DNA of 37,060 bases from Candidatus Shapirobacteria bacterium (lineage in GTDB: Bacteria; Patescibacteriota; Microgenomatia; UBA12405). The stretch is from assembly GCA_017992115.1 (NCBI GenBank), contig JAGOPG010000004.1:2871-39930 (forward strand). The letters are read 5' to 3'. Shown piece by piece: positions 3 to 19,125 of the stretch. A program made the position numbers and the translations under genes. Numbering within the stretch: position 1 is the stretch's first letter; each line of letters starts with the position of its first letter. Below the pieces are notes generated by a model. The model was given only the letters and a program-made list of their open reading frames with translations, had not been told where the DNA came from and made no database searches.

Positions 3-521
3 ACCAATAAATATGATTTTGTTATTACCAGTGAAGAATTAAAGAATGTCGATTACTTAGGGGCAATGACGGTAGTGTTTAGCTCAAAACAAAAATTAAG
101 CCCTTATTACTGGCATAATATTAATGATGCCAACTCCCCTTTTTTGGCATTTATTGAACATACAAATCTAGTAGGGACAAAAAGATATAAGGGTCGGCAT
201 ATTTATTATTTAGGTACATATTTATCTCAAAAACACCGGTATTTTGAGGAAAATAATCAAAAAATATATAAAGAATTTTTTGATTATTTAAGTAAAATCT
301 TCCCCAAATTTGATAAAAGAAAAATTGAAAAGAAATGGATATTTAAATTTAAAACAGCACAACACATAGTGACTACAAACTATCAATCTACAATCTCCAA
401 TCTTCAATCAAATAAAAAAATCATCCATATAAACTTTGCAAAAATTTATCCGGAAGATAGGGGGGTAAATTATGCAGTCAGAGAAGCAGAAAAAACAGCT
501 GATTTATTTGATTGCCTCTAA
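3..521 (+). CDS. FAD-dependent oxidoreductase, C-terminal part (5' end outside window)
   Basis: The reading frame is open from base 3 and ends at a TAA at 519-521, so only the last ~172 residues are present. The segment with LSPYYWHNI, AFIEHTNLV, YLGTYLS and the terminal region around NFAKIYPEDRGVNYAVREA resembles the C-terminal part of NAD(P)/FAD-dependent amine-oxidase-like or protoporphyrinogen-oxidase-like enzymes, which are often found beside sugar-nucleotide and glycosyltransferase genes. The FAD-binding Rossmann motif would lie upstream of the window, so substrate and reaction cannot be assigned. An internal ATG at 66 is not the start, because coding similarity continues upstream of it (DYLGAMTVVFSSK). 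The 3' end overlaps the 3' end of the convergent rmlD by 18 bp. The family call is by pattern recall only. Confidence 0.7.
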   Translation, partial: TNKYDFVITSEELKNVDYLGAMTVVFSSKQKLSPYYWHNINDANSPFLAFIEHTNLVGTKRYKGRHIYYLGTYLSQKHRYFEENNQKIYKEFFDYLSKIFPKFDKRKIEKKWIFKFKTAQHIVTTNYQSTISNLQSNKKIIHINFAKIYPEDRGVNYAVREAEKTADLFDCL

Positions 522-1364
522 ACCGTTGGTTAGAGTGCGCATGGAAATACCAAGTTCATCTTTAATTTTTTGATTACTGAGGGACTGATTTTTGCCAAAA
601 GGACGGGCAGTGGGGTTGTCGATTAGATATTTTTCTAAAGAAGAAGGGTGGATCAGAGAAGAATCAAGATTGAAAATTCTGGCAACCTCCTGAGCTATCT
701 CATAGGGTGAATGTGAACTAGAGCCAACAAGATGAAAAATTCCTGCTGGTTTTTGCTGAATGATAATATCTAAGCCATGGGCAATATCATCTATAAAGGT
801 AGGGGTAATGGTTTGATCTGTAAAAAGATTTAGTGGTTCACTACTTTGCAGTTTATTAATGTAACCTCTAATAAAATCGACTTTTAGAGGAAATTCTTTG
901 CGATAGGGAAAACTTATTCTGACAACAGTAGCCCCAGCATCAAGGGCAATTTTTTCAGCCATAGCTTTGGTTTGGCCATACCATTCCATGGCATTCGGAA
1001 GGTCATTTTCATTATAAGGGACATTTTTTTGACCATTAAAAACATAGTCGGTAGAAATATGAATTAAATGTTTATTGTACTTTTTACATAATTGGGCAAC
1101 GTTTTTTGTGCCTTCAACATTAACCTTAAAACAGGGACTATTTGTATCAAATTTTTGTTCCCAGGCAGCTTTAGTATCGGTGAAGGCAGCAAAATGAATA
1201 AGTGTATCAGCAGTACTATTTTGAAAAAAAGTCTCTAAAGTTTCTATTTTGGTAATATCTGCCTGGGGATAGATCAGGTTAATAAATTCATATTGAGGAT
1301 TTAACTCGACCACCCGAGAACCAACCAATCCATCCAAACCGGTACCTAAAATCTCTTTATTCAT
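504..1364 (-). CDS. rmlD: dTDP-4-dehydrorhamnose reductase RmlD
   Basis: Last enzyme of dTDP-L-rhamnose synthesis; it reduces dTDP-4-keto-L-rhamnose with NAD(P)H in the cytoplasm. The 286-residue length is normal for the family. The N-terminal dinucleotide-binding motif reads GTGLDGLVGS (residues ~7-16), followed by HFAAFTDTKAAWE, ISTDYVFNG and the SDR catalytic pair in YGQTK. The ATG overlaps the rmlC stop as ATGA (1361-1364), and a GAGG Shine-Dalgarno lies 7-8 nt upstream inside rmlC, so this start is well supported and translational coupling is likely. It is the last gene of rmlBCD. rmlA (glucose-1-phosphate thymidylyltransferase) is not in the window. Confidence 0.93.
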   Translation of the reverse strand: MNKEILGTGLDGLVGSRVVELNPQYEFINLIYPQADITKIETLETFFQNSTADTLIHFAAFTDTKAAWEQKFDTNSPCFKVNVEGTKNVAQLCKKYNKHLIHISTDYVFNGQKNVPYNENDLPNAMEWYGQTKAMAEKIALDAGATVVRISFPYRKEFPLKVDFIRGYINKLQSSEPLNLFTDQTITPTFIDDIAHGLDIIIQQKPAGIFHLVGSSSHSPYEIAQEVARIFNLDSSLIHPSSLEKYLIDNPTARPFGKNQSLSNQKIKDELGISMRTLTNGLEAIK

Positions 1365-1930
1365 AATAAATCCTCTTTTGGAATATCGATTAAATTTGGC
1401 AAAACTAAATCTTTATCACTAAATTTAATTTCATTTCGACTAAAAGGTAGATCTATATTAAGGGCAGGGTCAAAAGGGTTTACCCCTTTTTCACTTTTGG
1501 GTGAATAAACTCCGTCGGTTACATAATATGTAAAACAAGTGTTGTCCTCTAAGGCTAAATAACCATGAGCAAAGCCGGGAGGCAACCAAAGTTGATTTTG
1601 TTTTTCAGCACTGAGAATTTCGGAAATATGTTGCCCGAAGGTGGGAGAATTCTGGCGGATATCCAGACCGATATCAAGCACTGAACCACTGGTAGCCATG
1701 ACTATTTTCCCCTGGGTTTCAGGTTTTTGAAAGTGGAGACCGCGGAAAATTCCTCTTCGGGCATTGAAAGAAGAAGCTACCTGAGTAAGCCTGAATTTTA
1801 TTCCTGTGGCGGCTTCAAATTCAGAGACTTCGAGGCTTGGAGAATACCAACCACGGGCATCACCAAAAATTTGGGGTTGAAGGCGGAAAAGTCCTTTTAA
1901 TTCGGTTTCTTGAATAAATTTATATGGCAT
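1361..1930 (-). CDS. rmlC: dTDP-4-dehydrorhamnose 3,5-epimerase RmlC
   Basis: Cupin-fold epimerase that converts dTDP-4-keto-6-deoxyglucose to dTDP-4-keto-rhamnose. The 189-residue length is typical. Family signatures visible are RGIFRGLHFQ with the catalytic His, DIGLDIRQNSPTFG, LPPGFAHGYLALED and the aromatic region TCFTYYVTDGVYSP. Its start lies inside the 3' end of rmlB (11 bp overlap) and its TGA stop forms the ATGA junction with rmlD, so the three genes are almost certainly one transcript. The TGA stop also shows that this organism reads UGA as a stop codon. No Shine-Dalgarno is visible before the ATG; translation probably continues from rmlB by coupling. Confidence 0.94.
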   Translation of the reverse strand: MPYKFIQETELKGLFRLQPQIFGDARGWYSPSLEVSEFEAATGIKFRLTQVASSFNARRGIFRGLHFQKPETQGKIVMATSGSVLDIGLDIRQNSPTFGQHISEILSAEKQNQLWLPPGFAHGYLALEDNTCFTYYVTDGVYSPKSEKGVNPFDPALNIDLPFSRNEIKFSDKDLVLPNLIDIPKEDLL

Positions 1931-2942
1931 TGTGAATATTTTTATAGTCGGCTAATTTTTTATAAAAAACTTCGGCTTCGGCTTTGCTGGCTTCATACCA
2001 AGTTTGGTTTTGGGTGTACCAGTCGATTGTAGCTTGAAGACCAGAGTCTAAATTATATTCTGGCTCCCACCCTAATTGTTGATTTATTTTATCCCAATTT
2101 ACGGCATAATTATCATGAGCTGGCCTATCGGGAACGTATTCAATATAAGATTCATCTTTACCCATTAGGTTAATAATTTTTTTGACTAACTCCAAATTAC
2201 TAGTCCCTTTTTTTAATCCGCCGATACAATAGGTTTCTCCTATTTTACCTCGTAAAATAATAGCTTCAATTGCCCGACAGTGATCAGTAACGTAAAGCCA
2301 ATCGCGGATATTTTCACCCTTTCCATAAATTTTAATTTTTTCATCAGCTAATAGGTTAGTGATGGTACGAGGAATCATTTTTTCGGGATGCTGGTAGGGG
2401 CCGTAATTGTTTGAACAGTTGCTAATAGTGATAGGTAGATTAAAGGTTTTGTAAAAGGAGCGGACAAAATGATCAGAGGATGCTTTGGAGGCGGAATAGG
2501 GAGAACTGGGATCATAGGAGGTATTTTCATTAAACTGGGCTTCACTTCCAAAAGGAATGGAACCAAAAACCTCATCGGTGGAAACATGATGAAAACGTTT
2601 TTGATATTTTTTGGCTGCATTTAAAAGAACATAGGTACCTAAAACATTGGTCTTGACGAATAAAAGCGGGTCGTCAATGGAACGATCAACATGGGATTCG
2701 GCAGCAAAATGAACTATTACATCGGAATCCGCTACTAAACTATCAACTATTTTTTCATCCAAAATGTCACCTTGAACAAAGCGGTAATTAAACTTTCCCT
2801 CAATATCAGTTAAATTTTGAGGATTAGCCGCGTAAGTTACTTTGTCTAGATTGACTATCGAATCCTGATGATGGTTTGAAAACCAATATCGGATAAAATT
2901 TGTTCCAATAAATCCGAGACCACCTGTAACCAGTAGTTTCAT
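1920..2942 (-). CDS. rmlB: dTDP-glucose 4,6-dehydratase RmlB
   Basis: Extended-SDR enzyme that makes dTDP-4-keto-6-deoxyglucose from dTDP-glucose. The 340-residue length is normal. The NAD-binding motif is TGGLGFIGTNF (residues ~6-16), the Asp-Glu catalytic pair lies in HVSTDEVFGS, and YSASKASSDHFV supplies the Tyr-x3-Lys motif. The sugar-nucleotide region NCSNNYGPYQHPEKMIP is also present. It is the first gene of rmlBCD and starts 15 bp after the stop of the LytR_C-like membrane protein gene. Upstream of its ATG there is only a weak -10-like CATAAA 4 nt away and no Shine-Dalgarno. The product probably feeds surface polysaccharide or glycoprotein rhamnosylation (inference). Confidence 0.95.
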   Translation of the reverse strand: MKLLVTGGLGFIGTNFIRYWFSNHHQDSIVNLDKVTYAANPQNLTDIEGKFNYRFVQGDILDEKIVDSLVADSDVIVHFAAESHVDRSIDDPLLFVKTNVLGTYVLLNAAKKYQKRFHHVSTDEVFGSIPFGSEAQFNENTSYDPSSPYSASKASSDHFVRSFYKTFNLPITISNCSNNYGPYQHPEKMIPRTITNLLADEKIKIYGKGENIRDWLYVTDHCRAIEAIILRGKIGETYCIGGLKKGTSNLELVKKIINLMGKDESYIEYVPDRPAHDNYAVNWDKINQQLGWEPEYNLDSGLQATIDWYTQNQTWYEASKAEAEVFYKKLADYKNIHNAI

Positions 2943-2957
2943 TGAATTTATGAAAAA

Positions 2958-4301
2958 TTAACGAGTAGAAGAAGGAGTGGCTGAAGTGGTGCTGGCTTTG
3001 GTAGGTGTAATACCACTGAGGTTGGTGCCAATAATGATAACTACATCATAGTTGGAACCGGCGGCTAATTCCGAAGTATCAGCATTAGCAAATCCTTTAA
3101 TATTTTCGGCAAAATATTGACTAGAAATATCTTTTTTGGTTTGAATTTTGTTTTCTCCGCTAGTATCGTTGCTGTTTCCAGTATTTACATCGGTAAAACC
3201 GAGTTTGGTAAGTTCACCCTTGACAGTTGAGGCTTGGCCGTTAATATCAGTAGCATTGAGGACTTGTATTTTGATATCCTTATCGATCTCAACTGGAGTT
3301 TTGGTTGGAGAAATCTCTTCGGTGGGAGAAGGAACACTGGAAATTTCGTTGGCAGTGTTTTCACCACCAGGAATGATATCTTCTTCTGATTTGTTGTGAT
3401 TAAGCACATAAGAAACAATTAAAGATGCCGCAATCAAGGTAAAGAGAAAAACGGCTATAATGGGCAGTATATTTTTTTTGTTATTTTCTTCCATAGGAGG
3501 TGTAAAAGGAGTATTAACTGTATCAGTTTTGATTATAACAGGTGCAGGCTTGATATTACCAGCGAAAAAAGACAGAACCGGTAAGGGGACATTTGAAGGC
3601 TTTTGGAATCTGGAAGCAATTTCAGTTTCCTGATAATTTTGTCCTGGATAATATTGAAGTGGATCTTTATCTCCAAAATAGGCCTGAGCGTAGTTCAATA
3701 ATTTTTTTATTTCAGGTAGAGTTTTCTTGATAGGATAGGTTAAATATACTTTTCCTCCTTTACTTAAACTGGCCAAATAATCATTCTCACCGATAGGATA
3801 AAAAAAGAAATATTGACTACTATCAATGTGGGAAAAGGTTTTAATAGTGGCACTTGATACAGTTTCAAAATCTAAGACTTTTATATTTAACTTATTGAGA
3901 TTTTCTTGTAGATTTTGGAATTTCTCCTGATTAAAAATTCGGGTTACAACTAAGGTACGATTTTGAGAAGGTTCTAAATCAAAGGTAACCGAATCGGGAG
4001 AGATTTTAAAATCAACCGAATCTTTGGCTAAAGTTACCACTTCTTCCGGATTTAATTTGTCCACCAGTTGATCGTAAACGAAAGTTTTAGTGATGACATA
4101 ACTGTCATCTAAAAGAACGTAACTTTCGGTAATTTTGTTTTGCTTAAAAAAATTTGCTAAAGCAGAAAGAGAATCGGCACTTTGAGGTTGCCAAAGATCA
4201 ATTTCGAAGGAATATTTGTTGTTTTCATTCCGATCGAAATAAACATTTAAATTCTTATCCTGAGGCCAAAGAACAATTTTAGGTTTAGAAAAAAGTGCCA
4301 T
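2958..4301 (-). CDS. Membrane protein: PilM-like N-terminal domain, one TM, LytR_C-like extracellular tail
   Basis: 447 residues. Residues ~1-240 form a cytoplasmic region without an export signal. Stretches such as YVLLDDSYVITKTF and QYFFFYPIGENDYLASLSKGGKVYL look like a degenerate actin/PilM-type fold (tentative). A hydrophobic helix at ~275-298 is followed by a Pro/Thr/Ser-rich linker. Residues ~345-430, containing IKIQVLNATDINGQASTVK, LTKLGFTDV and NYDVVIIIGTNL, match the LytR_C pattern found at the C-terminus of LytR-CpsA-Psr proteins, but no LCP catalytic domain is present. The topology is predicted as cytoplasmic N-terminus and extracellular C-terminus. An extended -10 (TGC-TAAAAT) ends 7 nt before the ATG. 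Function is unknown; an envelope role is inferred from rmlBCD downstream. Confidence 0.72.
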   Translation of the reverse strand: MALFSKPKIVLWPQDKNLNVYFDRNENNKYSFEIDLWQPQSADSLSALANFFKQNKITESYVLLDDSYVITKTFVYDQLVDKLNPEEVVTLAKDSVDFKISPDSVTFDLEPSQNRTLVVTRIFNQEKFQNLQENLNKLNIKVLDFETVSSATIKTFSHIDSSQYFFFYPIGENDYLASLSKGGKVYLTYPIKKTLPEIKKLLNYAQAYFGDKDPLQYYPGQNYQETEIASRFQKPSNVPLPVLSFFAGNIKPAPVIIKTDTVNTPFTPPMEENNKKNILPIIAVFLFTLIAASLIVSYVLNHNKSEEDIIPGGENTANEISSVPSPTEEISPTKTPVEIDKDIKIQVLNATDINGQASTVKGELTKLGFTDVNTGNSNDTSGENKIQTKKDISSQYFAENIKGFANADTSELAAGSNYDVVIIIGTNLSGITPTKASTTSATPSSTR

Positions 4302-4369: not shown

Positions 4370-4852
4370 TTACCAACGCAAATGGGAAAAAGCTTTATTA
4401 GCTTCTGCCATTCTTTCTACCTCTTGACGTTTAGCAATAGCAGCACCTTCATTGTTTAAAACGGCGAGTAATTCTGCAGAAAGTTTTTCGGCGAATGAGT
4501 GATATTGTTTGTTCGGACGTTTCTGAGCTGCAATAATTAGCCATCGTATTGCCAAAGAATACTGACGGGAAGTACGAACTGGGGTGGGTACTTGATAAAC
4601 AGCACCGCCAATACGGCGAGGACGGACTTCAACTTTGGGTTTAAGATTTTCTAAGGCTTGCTCTAAAGTTTCGAGAGTGTCTTTACTTTTAGATTCTTTA
4701 GTAAAAATTTTTAAAGCTTCATAAACCTGTTTTTGGGCAGCATTTTTATTGCCAGCAAACATAGAACGATTGATCAATTTGGCAACAACTTCGCTCTGAT
4801 ATTGAGTATCAGGAAGAATTTTTCTAATTTTGGATGGACCTTTTCTTGACAT
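4370..4852 (-). CDS. rpsG: 30S ribosomal protein S7
   Basis: 160 residues, close to the usual 155-160. S7 signatures are visible: an RKGPSKIRKILPD-type N-terminus, NAAQKQVYEALKI, LENLKPKVEVRPRRIGGAVYQVP, RQYSLAIRWLI and AEKLSAELL. It binds the 3' major domain of 16S rRNA and nucleates head assembly of the small subunit. It follows rpsL by 5 bp in the classic str-operon order (rpsL-rpsG) and is closed by the 4328-4349 hairpin. fusA and tuf, which follow rpsG in many bacteria, are not here. No Shine-Dalgarno precedes the ATG. Confidence 0.97.
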   Translation of the reverse strand: MSRKGPSKIRKILPDTQYQSEVVAKLINRSMFAGNKNAAQKQVYEALKIFTKESKSKDTLETLEQALENLKPKVEVRPRRIGGAVYQVPTPVRTSRQYSLAIRWLIIAAQKRPNKQYHSFAEKLSAELLAVLNNEGAAIAKRQEVERMAEANKAFSHLRW

Positions 4853-4857
4853 ATTTT

Positions 4858-5283
4858 TTAAGCTGATGCTTTGGCGGAGCTTTTCTTGGCTCCATATTTA
4901 CTCCGAGATTGCTGACGGCCGACAACAGCACCAGCGTCATACTTACCACGGATAACATGATAACGAACACCAGGAAGATCACGGACACGACCGCCACGAA
5001 TAGAGACAATACCGTGTTCAGCCAAGTTGTGTCCGACACCGGGAATATAGGCAGTGACGGTGGCTCGATTACTAAGGCGAATCTTGGCAATTTTACGTAA
5101 AGCAGAATGTGGTTTTTTAGGAGTCATGGTTTTAACCACAGTAACCACTCCTTTTTTTTGCGGGTTATAGGTATCAATAGTAGTATTTTTAATACTATTA
5201 AAATTGTTGCGCAAGGCTTTAGTCTTTAGTTTAAAATGACGGTTTTTGCGGCCTTTTTTGATAAGTTGATTGAAAGTTGGCAT
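4858..5283 (-). CDS. rpsL: 30S ribosomal protein S12
   Basis: 141 residues from the ATG at 5283. A longer in-frame start at 5346 would lie inside rpoC and add a non-family leader, whereas [13 protein letters not shown] matches the S12 N-terminus. Decoding-centre motifs are [11 protein letters not shown] and [13 protein letters not shown], and RSKYGAKK ends the conserved core. Two changes relative to E. coli stand out: Asn to His in the PNSALRK motif, and Lys88 to Arg (codon 4981-4983), a substitution that in E. coli and Mycobacterium gives streptomycin resistance. The start lies 7 nt after the rpoC stop. S12 is the RimO methylthiolation target in some bacteria; the Asp after R88 is conserved. 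Confidence 0.97.
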
Positions 5284-5290
5284 ATTTAAT

Positions 5291-8200
5291 TTAGCATTTA
5301 GATTCAATGTCCTTTCCAACAGGAATAAGACGTCCGATAATAACATTTTCTTTGAGCCCTATCAAGTTATCGACCTCAGCCAAAAGTGAGGCCTCGGTAA
5401 GAACACCGGTGGTTTGCTGGAAAGAAGCTGCAGAGAGCCAAGAACCTGTGGTCAGAGAAGATTGAATAAGACCCAAGAGAACTTTGTGTCCTCGAGCTGG
5501 TTTACCATCGACATTGTTTGCCTTTGCCTTTTCATTTTCTTCCTCGTAAACTGGCCGAGTAACAACTTGACCATAAAGGAAATTGGTATCTCCGGGATCT
5601 TCAATTTTAAGTTTATCGCTCATTTCCCGAACGATAACTTCAAAGTGCTTGTCGTGAATAACAATACCTTGAGATTCATAGACTCCTTGGATAGAACTGA
5701 TCAAATATTTTTGAGCAGCCTCTAAACCAGATACTTCTAGAATTTCACGAACATCAATGGCCCCGGCAGAAAGTTGGGTGCCCTGAGCAACTAAATCACC
5801 ATCAGTTACCAATAAAGTAATGTTTTTAGGTAGAATATAATTGACAACTTTGGCAACACCGTTTTTATCTTTACCGCTAAGTTTGACTTCATAACCATCT
5901 AGACTTTCTTTGATTTTAATTTTTCCGTCAATTTCGGCAATAGGTGAAGGTACTTTGGGCATACGAACTTCAAAAAGTTCCTGAATACGGGGTAAACCTT
6001 GAGTAACGTCAACACCTAAAACACCACCGGTGTGTTTGGTTCTGAGTGTTAATTGAGTTCCCTGTTCACCAACAGATTGAGCTGCGATAACGCCAACAGG
6101 TACACCAATTTCGACTAACTTGCGAGTAGATAAGTCCCAACCATAACATTTTTGACAAAGACCCACTCTACATTTACAAGTTAAAGGTGAACGTATATCA
6201 ACAGTTTTTATTTCAGAATTCTCGATGAATTCTAAAGCGTTATTGTCGATAATATCACCTTTTTTAACAAATACTTTTTTGGATTTAGGATCAAGAATGT
6301 CGTTTGCGGCAACACGGCCTAAAAGGCGACGACCAAAATATTTTTCCCTACCTTTTTCATTTCTATCGATGGTCCAAAATCGGGTGGTGCCACAGTCTTC
6401 ATTGTTAATGATGGCCACGTGGGAAGTATCAACCAAGCGACGGGTAAGGTAACCAGCATCAGCAGTACGCAAGGCAGTGTCTGCCAAACCTTTTCTGGTA
6501 CCTCGAGCTCCAGTAATATATTCAAAAACAGAAAGGCCTTCGCGAAAGTTACTTTTAGTAGGCAAATGGACAATTTTTCCAGTGGGATCAACCATAAGTC
6601 CCCTCATGGCTGAAAGCTGTTTGATTTGGTCTTTGGAAGCTCGTTTAATACCAGCCGCAGAGATAATACGGATAGGTGAATCAATGTCCAGAGTGTCCCA
6701 AGTTTTTTGAGCGATATCTTCGGTAACCTCCATCCAAATTCCCTGAGAAAGACGAAGCTTTTCATCATTACTGATTAGTCCCATTTTATAGTTATCTTCA
6801 ATTTCGGTAACCTTTTTATCGGCAGCAGTAATTAAAGATTCTTTATTACTCAAATAACCCATATCGGACATGGACAAGGACAAACCAGAAAGAGTGAAAC
6901 CGGCGAAACCAATTTCTTTTAGAGAATCAATTAATTTAACCGTTTTGATTCTTCCGGCAATTTGTAAAGATTTGACAATCAAATCATTTAGAGCCTTGGA
7001 ACCAGCCATGGCCTCATTAACGTAAGAAAATTCCGAAGGAAGAATTGAATTGAACCAAATCCGCCCATAAGTAGTTTTGATTAATTGGTTATCAATTTTT
7101 ACTGCAACTAATTGTCGAAGTCCAATTTTACCAGCTTGATAGGCTAAAATTGCTTCTTCTTTATCAGCCATAATGGTAAGATCTCGGATTGAATCATCTC
7201 CTTCCTTGGCAATATCTTCAGAACGGACTGAGGTGACATAATAACAACCAACAGCCATTTCCTGAGAAGGAATGGAAACTGGGGAACCGTCAGAAGGTTT
7301 CAAAAGGTTCTTCGAGGGTAACATCAACTCTTTTGCCTCTTTTTGGGCAGATTTTGATAAGGGTAAATGAACCCCCATTTGGTCACCATCAAAATCGGCA
7401 TTAAAACCCTTACAAACACAAGGGTGAAGTCGAATAGCCAAACCATCAGTTAATACTGGTTTAAAAGCCTGAATGGAGAGCTTGTGTAAAGTAGGAGCAC
7501 GATTTAAGAGAACATAAGTATCTTTAGTGACTCTTTCAAGAATGTCATAAACTTCGTTAACACGGTGGTCAATAAGATTTTTGGCAGATTTAATGTTGGC
7601 AGCCAATCCGGTATCCATTAATTCCTTTAGAACAAAAGGACGATACATTTCCAAAGCAATTTCTTTTGGTAAACCGACTTGATTAAGTTTCAGTTCAGGT
7701 CCAACAACGATAACTGAACGACCGGAATAATCAACACGCTTACCCAAAAGGTTACGGCGAAAACGACCTTTTTTACCGCGCAGTAAATCGGACAAAGAAC
7801 GCGGTTGGCGTTTGATGGTTTTACGTTTATTTTTTGAAGCTTTCTGAGCATCAATAAGAATATCAACGGATTCCTGGAGCATTCGTTTTTCATTGCGTAA
7901 AATTATTTCTGGAGCACCAAGTTTTATTAATTTTTTTAAACGATTATTTCTATTGATTAAACGACGATATAAATCATTTAAATCGGAAGTGGCAAAACGA
8001 CCTCCTGTCAATTGAACCATAGGACGTAAATCCGGTGGAATTACCGGTACGTGTTCCAGAATCATCCAGGAAGGAGAAATATTGTTTTCTATCATTCCGT
8101 TTAAAATACGGATTTTGTACATTATTTTCTTTTTCTTAAGTTTGGAGGAGGTTTTTGCCAGTTCTTTTTTGAGATTTTTGACAGTGGCTTCCATATCAAT

Positions 8201-12465: not shown

Positions 12466-13203
12466 TTATTCGATAATGGTAGGGCTAGAGGTAGCAGTAG
12501 TAGCAGATGTTGGAGATAGTTGGGTGGAAGATTGGGTGGCAGGACAGGTTAAAGTAGTACAGTTAATTTGAAGATCTTCCCCACAGACACAGTTATTACA
12601 ACCATCGTTTGCAACAAATTGTTGACCAATGGTAAAACGTTGGTCATTGAAGACACAATAATTATCAGCTTGTTGGCTGACCATAGGAGTAACACTGGGA
12701 ATGGTGCCGACATCGTCCGGACTTGAGGAAGATGATTGAGAATTTAGAAATGAACGAAGAACCAAAACCAAAACAATGATAAAGGCGATGAGAGCAAATA
12801 AAAATAGATATTTAAAAAAATTGTTTGATTTGGGTTCTTCAACGGGCGGGGTTATATTTTCCGAAGGAATTTCAGTATCAATTACAGGGTTGTTGGTAAT
12901 AGGTTGGGTGGTAGATTGGGTATCTGGTTGGGTTTCTGTAGAGGTGGATGGTAGGTCTGAGGGCGGATTGTCTGGTTGATTCTCTGCAATGGGTGCTTCT
13001 GGGATTTTGGATAAGGTATCTTCGGTGTGATTGGCCAATGTATCAACAGGTTCATCTACCGGGGTAGACTCAACTTCAGTTAGAGTGGCGGTTTCTGGTT
13101 CAGGAGGATTTTGGGGAATCTCAGAGTCAGGGTTATCTGCTAAATCTTTAGAATATTTATTGAGAATATCTTGATAATTTGGGTCTGTATTGGTATCTGT
13201 CAT
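12466..13203 (-). CDS. Membrane-anchored protein with VWC-like cysteine-rich C-terminal domain
   Basis: About 245 residues from the ATG at 13203; an upstream in-frame ATG at 13218 would add MRRLF and cannot be excluded. A Pro/Thr/Glu-rich, probably disordered N-terminal half (~1-135) is followed by one TM helix (~140-162, FFKYLFLFALIAFIIVLVLVL) and a short Ser-rich linker. A six-cysteine module then follows (C-FNDQRFTIGQQF-DGCNNCVCG-INCTTLTC), spaced like von Willebrand factor C/pacifastin-type domains. The order implies a cytoplasmic acidic region and an extracellular disulfide module. The tail is Ser/Thr-rich. No sorting signal is seen. Function unknown; surface display is inferred. It diverges from the sortase-substrate gene. 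Confidence 0.7.
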   Translation of the reverse strand: MTDTNTDPNYQDILNKYSKDLADNPDSEIPQNPPEPETATLTEVESTPVDEPVDTLANHTEDTLSKIPEAPIAENQPDNPPSDLPSTSTETQPDTQSTTQPITNNPVIDTEIPSENITPPVEEPKSNNFFKYLFLFALIAFIIVLVLVLRSFLNSQSSSSSPDDVGTIPSVTPMVSQQADNYCVFNDQRFTIGQQFVANDGCNNCVCGEDLQINCTTLTCPATQSSTQLSPTSATTATSSPTIIE

Positions 13204-13240
13204 AAATAATCTTCTCATTTTTTGAAAAAAGGTGCAACCA

Positions 13241-17064: not shown

Positions 17065-19125
17065 CTATAATTTTTGGATAATTGTAATTTTATCAGGAGA
17101 AGGAGGAAGTCGTTGCCAGAGATTAAAAACTTTCGGCAAAATTTCTATATTACGTCCATAAAGCATGGGTTGAGCATCTAATATTTTGTAGGCAGTACTT
17201 ATCTTTTGTTTGGCCAATTTTTTTTGCAAGGTGGCTACTTCGACCTTGGGCAAAGTTTTGCCAATGATGGTTAATTTACCAGTGGACTTTTGGGAAGCAT
17301 TTTTGGTGGCCTCAAACTTCAATTCAAAATCTTTTTCTGAAGCAACAGACTGGAGGAATTCCTGATTGTCCTGCAATAACAATCTAATAATATCTCCCTT
17401 TTTTGCAGGATCAATTTGAAGCAAAGATAAGGTTAGATTGGCATCAACCTTTAGTTCATCGGCTTCTTCCCCCACTTCCCGACTAAAATCAAGCTGTTTC
17501 TTGTCAATAAAAAGGGTAGAAGGCATTAATCCAGAGAGACTACTCTCTTCAGCGACTTTCTGATCTATCCGCTCATCTAGAGAATCAGTAATAATTTTAC
17601 TGAGTTTATTCTTGTCTTCAGTGCTGACTACTCGAATTTGCCTTTTACTACCGCCAGAAATAGAATCACTTGTTTTAGCTATTAAACTTGAATTATCCTT
17701 AAAAGACAATTCAACATCTTTGGCTAAATCGAATTCTGGTCCAATGTCGCTTGCAATAATCTGGGCTTTGGCTTGCCCCATGGTAATAGTTGCATTTTCC
17801 AAATTAATACTACTACCAGGTACCTGAGCAGAAGTAAGTATCTCATAGTTTTTGCCATTGGTAACCAAAATAGTGCCTTTGGGGACATTTTGAATTTTAT
17901 TACTTTGGTTGAGGATAGTGATGTCTCCTTTAGATTTTTCCCCATCTTCTTTCTCACCGGTGGTAGGAATACTATCAAAAAAGGCAAGGTTGATGGTTTT
18001 TTTGTGGGCAGGAATGGTAGTAGATGAAAGATCGTCGGCCGTAGAATCAAGGGTAACCGTAAAATTTTTATCAATCTCAATAGCTTTTAAATACATGGTA
18101 ACGTCCGCTTTAATTAAAAAATATGGGATAAGAAGAAAAATAGGCATCAAAGCTATTAGTAATAGCCAAAGAGGATTAAATTTAATTTTATTTACATTGA
18201 GAGAAGGGAGATTAATTTTAGGAAAATTAAGTTTAGGTTTTTTAGGGGGGGTGACAATCTCCTCTTTAGGAATCTCGATTTGAGCCTCAGGATTGGTAAA
18301 ACCTAATTCCTCAGCAGGAACTTGAGTAAACTCATCAGATATCAATTCTGAATTTTCTTCTTCTGGAGAAGGAGGGGGTACTGGTAATGTTTTATCTTCA
18401 AGTGAAGGATTTAGTTCAGAAGCTATACTTCGTGTATAGAGAGAAAATAAATCGTTTTCGGAATAAGAATCTACGTCAGGTAAATGAAGGAAGGTCTCAA
18501 TGTTTTTTCTACCTATCCATGGGTAATTTTTTATATCATCAATAATAGTATCGTTAAGATGTCCAAAGATTAGGATTCGTGGCGGTAGTGCGGAATCCAT
18601 CTGAATAGTTAAAAGGACATTTTCCAAGTCTTGTGGGGAAAATTCGTGATCGAGAGGTTGAACAAAACGTTTTTTAACCTCTCCCAAATAAACAAGGGAG
18701 GTGGTGAATTCTTTTTGGCCTAAATTTAAGAGAATAAAGCTAGGAGGAAAAGAATCTAATTTACCTAAAGCTTCAATGAACGCTTCATCATTACTGATAA
18801 AACCAAGCGGTTTTAATTTTAATGAATGGCATAGATTTTCCATAAGTTTAAGATAATCAGGAAAAATTTTGCCATCATTTCCAATCCATTGAGGAGGGAG
18901 AATAAAAGCTGCTTGAGATGGTTCATCTTCTGGATCCATGGAAACTTTTTCAGCAGCGGCGGAGAGAGAAATATCGACTGAACGAAGAAAGGAATCAGGA
19001 TCACCAGGAGTCCATTCAGTATCAGGCCCAATTGATGAAACCAACGATGGAGTACTGTTTTGAACTAGGGCAACAGCAACACCAGAAGTGTTAATAGAAA
19101 TGAGCCAATAATAAGGACTATCCAT
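17065..19125 (-). CDS. Large membrane protein: PilM/actin-like cytoplasmic domain, one TM, extracellular repeat-like C-terminus
   Basis: 686 residues. Residues ~1-240 resemble a PilM-type ASKHA fold: WLISINTSGVAVALVQ as a phosphate-1-like strand pair, QAAFILPPQWI, and FILLNLGQKEFTTSLVYLG as phosphate-2-like. Both nucleotide motifs look degenerate. A Pro/Glu linker (~245-310) leads to a TM helix (~318-338). The large C-terminal part contains a stretch like Baseplate_J/fiber beta-domains (GDITILNQSNK, VPKGTILVTNGKNYEI, ASDIGPEFDLAKDVELSF). The start overlaps the alaS stop by 1 bp and the stop abuts the sortase start. Function unknown; a surface-structure or envelope scaffold role is inferred from its neighbours. 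Confidence 0.7.
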   Translation of the reverse strand: MDSPYYWLISINTSGVAVALVQNSTPSLVSSIGPDTEWTPGDPDSFLRSVDISLSAAAEKVSMDPEDEPSQAAFILPPQWIGNDGKIFPDYLKLMENLCHSLKLKPLGFISNDEAFIEALGKLDSFPPSFILLNLGQKEFTTSLVYLGEVKKRFVQPLDHEFSPQDLENVLLTIQMDSALPPRILIFGHLNDTIIDDIKNYPWIGRKNIETFLHLPDVDSYSENDLFSLYTRSIASELNPSLEDKTLPVPPPSPEEENSELISDEFTQVPAEELGFTNPEAQIEIPKEEIVTPPKKPKLNFPKINLPSLNVNKIKFNPLWLLLIALMPIFLLIPYFLIKADVTMYLKAIEIDKNFTVTLDSTADDLSSTTIPAHKKTINLAFFDSIPTTGEKEDGEKSKGDITILNQSNKIQNVPKGTILVTNGKNYEILTSAQVPGSSINLENATITMGQAKAQIIASDIGPEFDLAKDVELSFKDNSSLIAKTSDSISGGSKRQIRVVSTEDKNKLSKIITDSLDERIDQKVAEESSLSGLMPSTLFIDKKQLDFSREVGEEADELKVDANLTLSLLQIDPAKKGDIIRLLLQDNQEFLQSVASEKDFELKFEATKNASQKSTGKLTIIGKTLPKVEVATLQKKLAKQKISTAYKILDAQPMLYGRNIEILPKVFNLWQRLPPSPDKITIIQKL

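Follow-up and report, generated by a model that had tools for sequence, protein, structure and literature searches.

The cell-envelope machinery of Patescibacteria is poorly characterised, and the LytR_C domain has been studied chiefly in actinobacterial wall assembly. A stretch of 37,060 nucleotides from a Candidatus Shapirobacteria genome (the window, at its full length) raises the question of what could be done by a protein of 447 residues in which a PilM-like region appears to be joined through one transmembrane (TM) helix to a LytR_C tail. The first-pass annotation had proposed this plan for an ORF at 2958–4301, had seen a similar plan in a 686-residue ORF at 17065–19125, and had suggested that such a fusion may scaffold an envelope machine. 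Both ORFs were confirmed on the minus strand; the 447-residue frame occupies exactly these positions (4301–2958), the strand of either ORF having been left unstated in that annotation.

Domain Organization and Predicted Topology

The 447-residue protein is predicted to be bitopic, with an actin-like domain inside and a LytR_C domain outside the cell. Its parts are as follows.

2958..4301, minus strand: whole gene, 447 aa, bitopic protein of putative pseudo-actin/TM/LytR_C plan (full-length relatives)
3561..4292, minus strand: actin-like (PilM/GspL-cyto-like) domain, residues 4–247, predicted cytoplasmic (AlphaFold2 model; PilM 2ych, Z 13.9; cyto-EpsL 1yf5, Z 13.4)
3396..3470, minus strand: single TM helix, residues 278–302, preceded by the near-invariant K275 K276 N277 (relatives, AlphaFold2 model, topology scan)
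3279..3395, minus strand: post-TM linker, residues 303–341, low-confidence, probably disordered (pLDDT <50 over 303–335; Pro+Ser+Thr fraction 0.37 over 303–340)
3024..3278, minus strand: LytR_C domain, residues 342–426 (PF13399, E = 3.7e-10; 6q10, Z 9.1; 2m5y, Z 8.1)
2961..3020, minus strand: Ser/Thr/Pro-rich tail, residues 428–447, probably disordered (Pro+Ser+Thr fraction 0.65; pLDDT <50 over 431–447)

In the family of the 447-residue protein, which showed one main TM helix, positive charge was greater on the N-terminal flank in 25 of 26 sequences, with one tie; hence, the actin-like domain is predicted to lie inside. The linker, described earlier as Pro-rich, was found to be only moderately rich in Pro, Ser, and Thr, their fraction being 0.35 before the TM helix and 0.37 after it. 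The AlphaFold2 model, computed with the 447-residue protein and 25 relatives, had a mean pLDDT of 78 and a pTM of 0.55. Averaged over blocks of ten residues, pLDDT was 87 to 96 between residues 11 and 190; it fell below 50 over the linker and tail residues listed above and over residues 254–277.

The assemblies are derived from metagenomes, and in one genome (G088) the coding sequence is broken into two reading frames, which could speak for a domain adjacency created by annotation or assembly. Such an artefact is refuted by the conservation of a single full-length ORF at 25 loci from 25 different assemblies with 34–67% identity, and its probability is regarded as negligible. Alignment A3 comprises 25 of the 33 loci with relatives, leaving out L085, L087, and L090–L094, which are partial, and L089, which lies in two frames; alignment A2 comprises 16 of the 18 rows of alignment A1.

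Predicted Fold of the Inside Domain and Nucleotide Motif Patterns

Structure prediction bore out the likeness claimed for this N-terminal region by returning an actin/PilM/GspL fold. The top PDB match of the model in Foldseek was PilM (5eq6, E = 1.8e-11). Alignment of the inside domain with VIA-align gave Z 13.9 for PilM 2ych (237 aligned, 4.7 Å), Z 13.4 for cyto-EpsL 1yf5 (205/238 aligned, 3.7 Å), Z 12.8 for GspL 4pht (195/226 aligned, 3.4 Å), and Z 11.6 and below for FtsA. In the modeled structure, PilM and cyto-EpsL are tied as the best matches of the inside domain. At the sequence level, PilM_2 (PF11104) did not match the 447-residue protein at E ≤ 1 in Pfam, and when a profile of the whole family was searched against the PDB, PilM did not appear, the only matches being LytR_C structures (E 0.0076 and 0.045); it is the predicted fold and bridging relatives that link this protein to PilM. 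Against canonical PilM alone, profile–profile comparison of the family gave a weak match (E = 0.0011, or 0.0098 with another alignment), these hhalign E-values being pairwise and without database correction.

The nucleotide-binding motifs were represented by simple patterns for phosphate-1, phosphate-2, and adenosine, which we take to be those of the actin family. Both phosphate patterns were present in 0 of 26 members of the 447-residue family, as against nine of nine canonical PilMs from the same bacterial family, and the adenosine pattern in 1 of 26, again as against nine of nine. Because these ATP-binding patterns are lost, the inside domain is best read from its sequence as a pseudo-actin and, since PilM_2 also fails to match, as a relative of PilM and not a PilM.

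LytR_C Domain and LCP Proteins

The LytR_C match scored 41 bits (cut-off 22.2) and was the sole Pfam family found in the protein at E ≤ 1; the LCP catalytic domain (PF03816) was absent at that threshold. The first-pass reading of a LytR_C tail with no LCP domain was thus upheld. A role of the protein as an LCP enzyme was considered and rejected, LytR_C being its only Pfam match. In VIA-align, the outside domain aligned with 6q10, the Rv2700 ortholog (98 aligned, 3.6 Å), and with 2m5y, Rv0431 (82 aligned, 2.9 Å), and the protein scored 36 bits with the NCBIfam Cei equivalog (NF035953), far below its cut-off of 150.

In the accessible part of one report, Cei and VirR are LytR_C-only proteins with a proposed link to LCP function (PMC7831098). 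VirR, according to excerpts of a second, self-associates, contacts LCP proteins via LytR_C, and is a proposed scaffold; the LCP signal was seen there only with truncated LCP proteins bearing LytR_C (PMC11832169). LCP transferases were found in 32 of 34 genomes of the bacterial family, with two such enzymes in the present genome, and LytR_C in all 34. The two LytR_C matches of this genome are the 447-residue protein and a 273-aa ORF, and neither is one of its two LCP ORFs; LytR_C thus sits on other proteins here. Separately, L206, L207, L208, and L211 contain proteins with six to eight hydrophobic segments on a simple scale and a LytR_C-like tail.

Genomic Neighborhood and Distribution

The gene lies on the same strand as the following neighbors.

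4858–5346, minus strand: rpsL, conserved upstream neighbor (NCBIfam over cut-off)
4370–4852, minus strand: rpsG, conserved upstream neighbor (NCBIfam over cut-off)
1920–2942, minus strand: rmlB, downstream (NCBIfam over cut-off)
1361–1930, minus strand: rmlC, downstream (NCBIfam over cut-off)
504–1364, minus strand: rmlD-like gene, downstream (NCBIfam 168 bits, below the cut-off of 224)

Relatives were located at 33 loci, 28 of them from Ca. Shapirobacteria and five with the title bacterium or Patescibacteria group bacterium. In 29 of the 33, rpsG lies upstream in the same orientation, at 21 to 2387 bases, and rmlB was found downstream in 22, in 13 of them within 200 bases, all distances being counted from where the BLAST match ends and not from the stop codon. 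In three loci without rpsG (L090, L092, and L093), the contig itself starts within the gene. In L094, rpsL, rpoC, and rpoB are opposite in strand to a fragment of the gene, unlike at other loci, perhaps through misassembly. Among the 11 loci in which rmlB was not found, five have less than 400 bases of downstream sequence; L073, L084, and L086 have more than 6 kb without rmlB, although rmlC- and rmlD-like matches are present in L073. Elsewhere in the window, a 250-aa protein (12466–13218, minus strand) matched von Willebrand type C and pacifastin-like models below cut-off.

The inside domain was detected in 20 of 21 sampled genomes of the bacterial family, the exception being G258, which is 81% complete. 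In the class sample, two genomes outside the bacterial family gave a match: that in G116 is convincing, and that in G255 (a 249-aa ORF, E = 0.002) was taken for chance. A wider search found a match to the 447-residue protein in 192 of 281 genomes; among the matches listed, those outside the bacterial family cover almost only the TM-linker-LytR_C part.

Fusions in Pilus Clusters and the Separate PilM

Sixty stretches, hand-picked mainly from the matches of the wider search and mainly for long ORFs and not random, were examined, their genes being labeled by BLAST to reference ORFs named by eye; two retrieved stretches (G166 and G006) were poorly chosen and did not contain the target. Ten reference labels were checked at one locus per type: prfB, dnaG, mraZ, and mraW (rsmH) passed the cut-offs; for ftsE, ftsX, pilB, and pilC, the top-scoring model was the expected one or closely related to it, below cut-off; ftsI had penicillin-binding protein models on top, below cut-off; and a 95-aa ftsL gave no match.

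A shorter fusion type was found among pilin-like genes in 13 of the 60 stretches, 11 of these with pilB or pilC. There the fusion is at the end of the pilin run, and a gene of ∼120–130 aa, read by eye as PilX-like, is mostly its neighbor or one gene away; no Pfam match supported this label for a 126-aa gene (L138) or a 250-aa gene (L308). One of the 13 proteins, that of L152, belongs to a pilB-pilC-pilin cluster and has the inside domain and TM helix without LytR_C. In the class sample, L152 was the nearest relative of the inside domain outside the bacterial family (E = 5.3e-11). Searched against 246 background ORFs and the extra proteins, a profile of the N-terminal region of the 447-residue family (N-profile) had only two matches at E ≤ 1e-3, L152 (8.3e-12) and L138 (6.8e-4). 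With shuffled decoys and filters off, L152 was at 4.8e-11 and the best decoy at 0.046; L214 (0.0034) and L138 (0.0039) exceeded that decoy by a factor of only about ten, and further relatives were mixed with decoys. The N-profile matched the 12 pilus-cluster fusions other than L152 at E = 1e-7 over residues 1–149; L154 was excluded from this group, as its stretch has no pilus genes. By profile comparison, the 447-residue protein is nearest to the pilus-cluster fusion type. In another part of the phylum, a 556-aa PilM::TM::outside protein with a full PilM part (G505; L308 4821–6488, minus strand) matches PilM_2 at E = 4.1e-26 and lies among pilin-like genes in a pilus cluster. Two Shapirobacteria genomes carry second, free-standing N-domain/TM/LytR_C proteins (L214 6199–7386, minus strand; L215 5320–6570, plus strand), whose best reference BLAST match is L152.

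The L152 relationship, the profile match to the 12 fusions, the pilB or pilC genes at 11 of 13 pilus-type loci, and the protein of G505 all argue for a subunit of the type IV pilus platform that, like GspL, would unite counterparts of PilM and PilN in one chain; it would have left the pilus cluster in Shapirobacteria and would still serve the pilus. However, the 447-residue gene is located on contig C24, away from the pilus cluster, and a canonical pilM (PilM_2 match, 6.8e-51) is present on contig C41, followed by two genes named pilN and pilO from their order and from weak sub-cut-off matches only. The genes in the pilN and pilO positions, for which the first-pass annotation had proposed a check, accordingly lie on another contig than the 447-residue gene. 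Because this run exists elsewhere in the genome, the 447-residue protein does not replace PilM. Likewise, all nine genomes tested, including G116, the source of L152, have a separate full-length or nearly full-length PilM_2 match, the frame of G121 containing one stop. The genome, 91% complete, contains one PilC ORF with two T2SSF repeats; with one PilC ORF, a second pilus system served by the 447-residue protein is not evident. On this balance, the pilus platform is considered an unlikely reading. More T2SSF matches occur in some relatives (four each in G068, G283, G231, and G198). Two further ORFs of this genome touch PilM_2: one of 419 aa with a partial match, taken for FtsA from its size and match, and one of 344 aa with a sub-cut-off match.

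Fusions in Division Loci and Outside the Class

A fusion type of 476–534 aa was found in 23 of the 60 stretches. Every one of the 23 has dnaG or prfB adjacent to the fusion or close by, 20 also contain ftsE and ftsX, and 15 a PcsB-like gene; the one PcsB-like gene checked had a C39-like match over cut-off and CC_PcsB below it. A type of 512–537 aa was found in five stretches, four of them with mraZ. Profile A4, which represents both larger types, matches PilM 3jc8 at E = 5.2e-9, and PilM_2 matches 3 of its 13 members (best 1.4e-7). As judged from these profiles, the two larger types are PilM relatives. A merged profile of PilM and the two larger types matched the pilus type at 3.4e-7, the 447-residue family at 5.5e-5, and the 686-residue protein at 0.0028. 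The other fusion types are mostly devoid of the nucleotide patterns as well, with phosphate-1 in 0/13, 0/23, and 0/5 and phosphate-2 in 1, 0, and 2 members, respectively.

Outside the class, a LytR_C match over cut-off follows a hydrophobic segment, identified by eye, in the proteins of L295/L309, L299, L302, and L303. The L299 protein matches the N-profile of the pilus type at 3.9e-5; in L295/L309, L302, and L303, a PilM-like N-region was seen by eye only, with no E ≤ 1e-3 from four profiles. The L309 fusion of N-region, TM, and LytR_C (5754–7103, minus strand) shares its stretch with FtsW/RodA and FtsZ genes (Pfam) and a gene rplU-like by eye.

These division-gene contexts, together with the presence of FtsA among the structural matches of the inside domain (Z about 11), would suit a divisome or elongasome scaffold, analogous to FtsA plus a SPOR protein. 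The fusions of the division loci, however, have a different and fuller PilM-like N-domain, and their match to the 447-residue family is weak (E 0.0007 to 0.007); the profile–profile comparison with the prfB-ftsEX type is weak too, at 0.042, or 0.0069 with another comparison. Moreover, no division genes were found near the Shapirobacteria gene in the stretches read, and such a role for the 447-residue protein is rated as distinctly improbable. The search for the same architecture in other Patescibacteria, proposed in the first pass, was fruitful: it occurs beside pilB-pilC-pilin, ftsE-ftsX, and mraZ genes in other Microgenomates, with LytR_C-tailed relatives outside the class. The fused plan is a widespread family and not a curiosity of one genome.

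The 686-Residue Protein

17065..19125, minus strand: 686-aa protein, N-domain (probably actin-like)/TM ∼320–338/outside domain (topology; low-confidence fold)

Found in 273 of 281 genomes, the gene for the 686-residue protein belongs to the core of the class. At the 30 loci read, the order alaS, 686-residue gene, sortase, ruvX was found in 18, with the sortase in 27 and alaS in 25; some of the others end at a contig edge or are cut short. Its family shows a single main TM segment whose N-terminal flank, predicted inside, is the more positive one in 27 of 28 sequences, the remaining sequence being a tie. The protein gave no Pfam match at E ≤ 1 and no PDB profile match at E ≤ 10. Baseplate_J weakly matched 11 of the 28 members of the alignment (best 2.2e-7) and not the window protein itself; a scan of viral contigs returned no relative. 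Its N-domain matched other profiles weakly (0.019; best 0.0019 with the 447-residue family and 0.0028 with the merged PilM-like profile). The single-sequence fold had a mean pLDDT of 49, and this low-confidence model gave no Foldseek match at E ≤ 0.001, the top being an unrelated ribosome-complex chain. The 50 VIA rows listed for it were mostly FtsA, MreB, actin-related, NTPDase, and sugar-kinase structures, with a best Z of 9.1 over 99 residues, and PilM was not among them. It is likely that the modeled N-domain has an actin-like core. Of the plan proposed as common to the two window proteins, the topology of both and the fold of the first held; the PilM likeness of the second N-domain and its kinship to the first were not confirmed, the profile matches being weak and the fold of low confidence.

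Proposed Function

The 447-residue protein is most likely a non-enzymatic scaffold connecting the inside with the outside for envelope assembly, as inferred from its parts and contexts. Its inside domain would be a docking platform for a cytoplasmic partner, for which GspL-cyto, which docks GspE, and PilM, which docks the tail of PilN, are models. As with VirR of M. tuberculosis, the docking site of the LytR_C domain, on its probably flexible tether, would be the wall or the LCP glycopolymer transferases. In Shapirobacteria, the protein may in this manner couple growth-linked expression from the rpsL-rpsG operon to the assembly of a wall glycopolymer (rhamnose). This wall-glycopolymer scaffold is favored with somewhat less than even confidence. 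Counting against it, the linkage to rmlB is not universal (rmlB was not found in 11 of the 33 loci), the VirR signal was seen only with truncated LCP proteins bearing LytR_C and no LytR_C is found on the LCP proteins here, and the nearest relative of the inside domain belongs to a pilus cluster, which points to pili rather than glycopolymers. Position after rpsG, too, may reflect expression level only.

Relatives of the same plan may do the equivalent for pili and the divisome. A broader and more tentative proposal, which we think possible though doubtful, is a general Patescibacteria coupling module of pseudo-actin, TM, and LytR_C, copied into pili, division, and the rhamnose-glycopolymer locus after rpsG, where it would take the role that separate proteins of the PilM/PilN or FtsA/SPOR type play as pairs in other bacteria. 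For the links from cytoplasm to wall or pili in Patescibacteria, a recurring bitopic family next to genes for pili, division, and sugar nucleotides supplies concrete candidates, and the fused plan gives LytR_C a testable new context.

Comparison With Known Systems

No description of a PilM-like or actin-like protein with LytR_C was found in the literature searched, including that on Patescibacteria; passages of PMC2632651 and PMC12206443 retrieved with LytR_C or LytR hold nothing on the fused plan. The 447-residue protein resembles FtsA in its actin-like fold (Z about 11) but is without the nucleotide patterns and has a true TM helix and an outside domain. With LCP glycopolymer transferases that carry LytR_C, it shares this domain and not the LCP catalytic domain. 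Cei (Rv2700) and VirR (Rv0431) likewise have a single TM helix, an outside LytR_C, and no LCP domain, whereas the 447-residue protein adds an actin-like inside domain of ∼250 residues and falls below the Cei equivalog cut-off. PilM, which acts with PilN, has the same inside-domain fold, and the nearest inside-domain relatives are in pilus clusters; in contrast to PilM, the present protein is fused to TM and LytR_C, is without nucleotide patterns and PilM_2 match, and is not encoded with pilN/pilO.

The whole plan has a parallel in GspL of the type II secretion system (T2SS), which similarly has a cytoplasmic actin-like domain of similar size, one TM helix, and one outside domain; the accessible text of PMC3815138 describes GspL as uniting a PilM-like cytoplasmic region with a PilN-like outside region. 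It differs in that the 447-residue protein has LytR_C outside and not the ferredoxin-like domain of GspL, and no T2SS genes are adjacent. The first-pass view of the fusion as undescribed therefore fails for the plan as such, which GspL has, and stands, in the literature searched, for the LytR_C version. What is new relative to the precedent set by GspL is the use of LytR_C as the outside domain.
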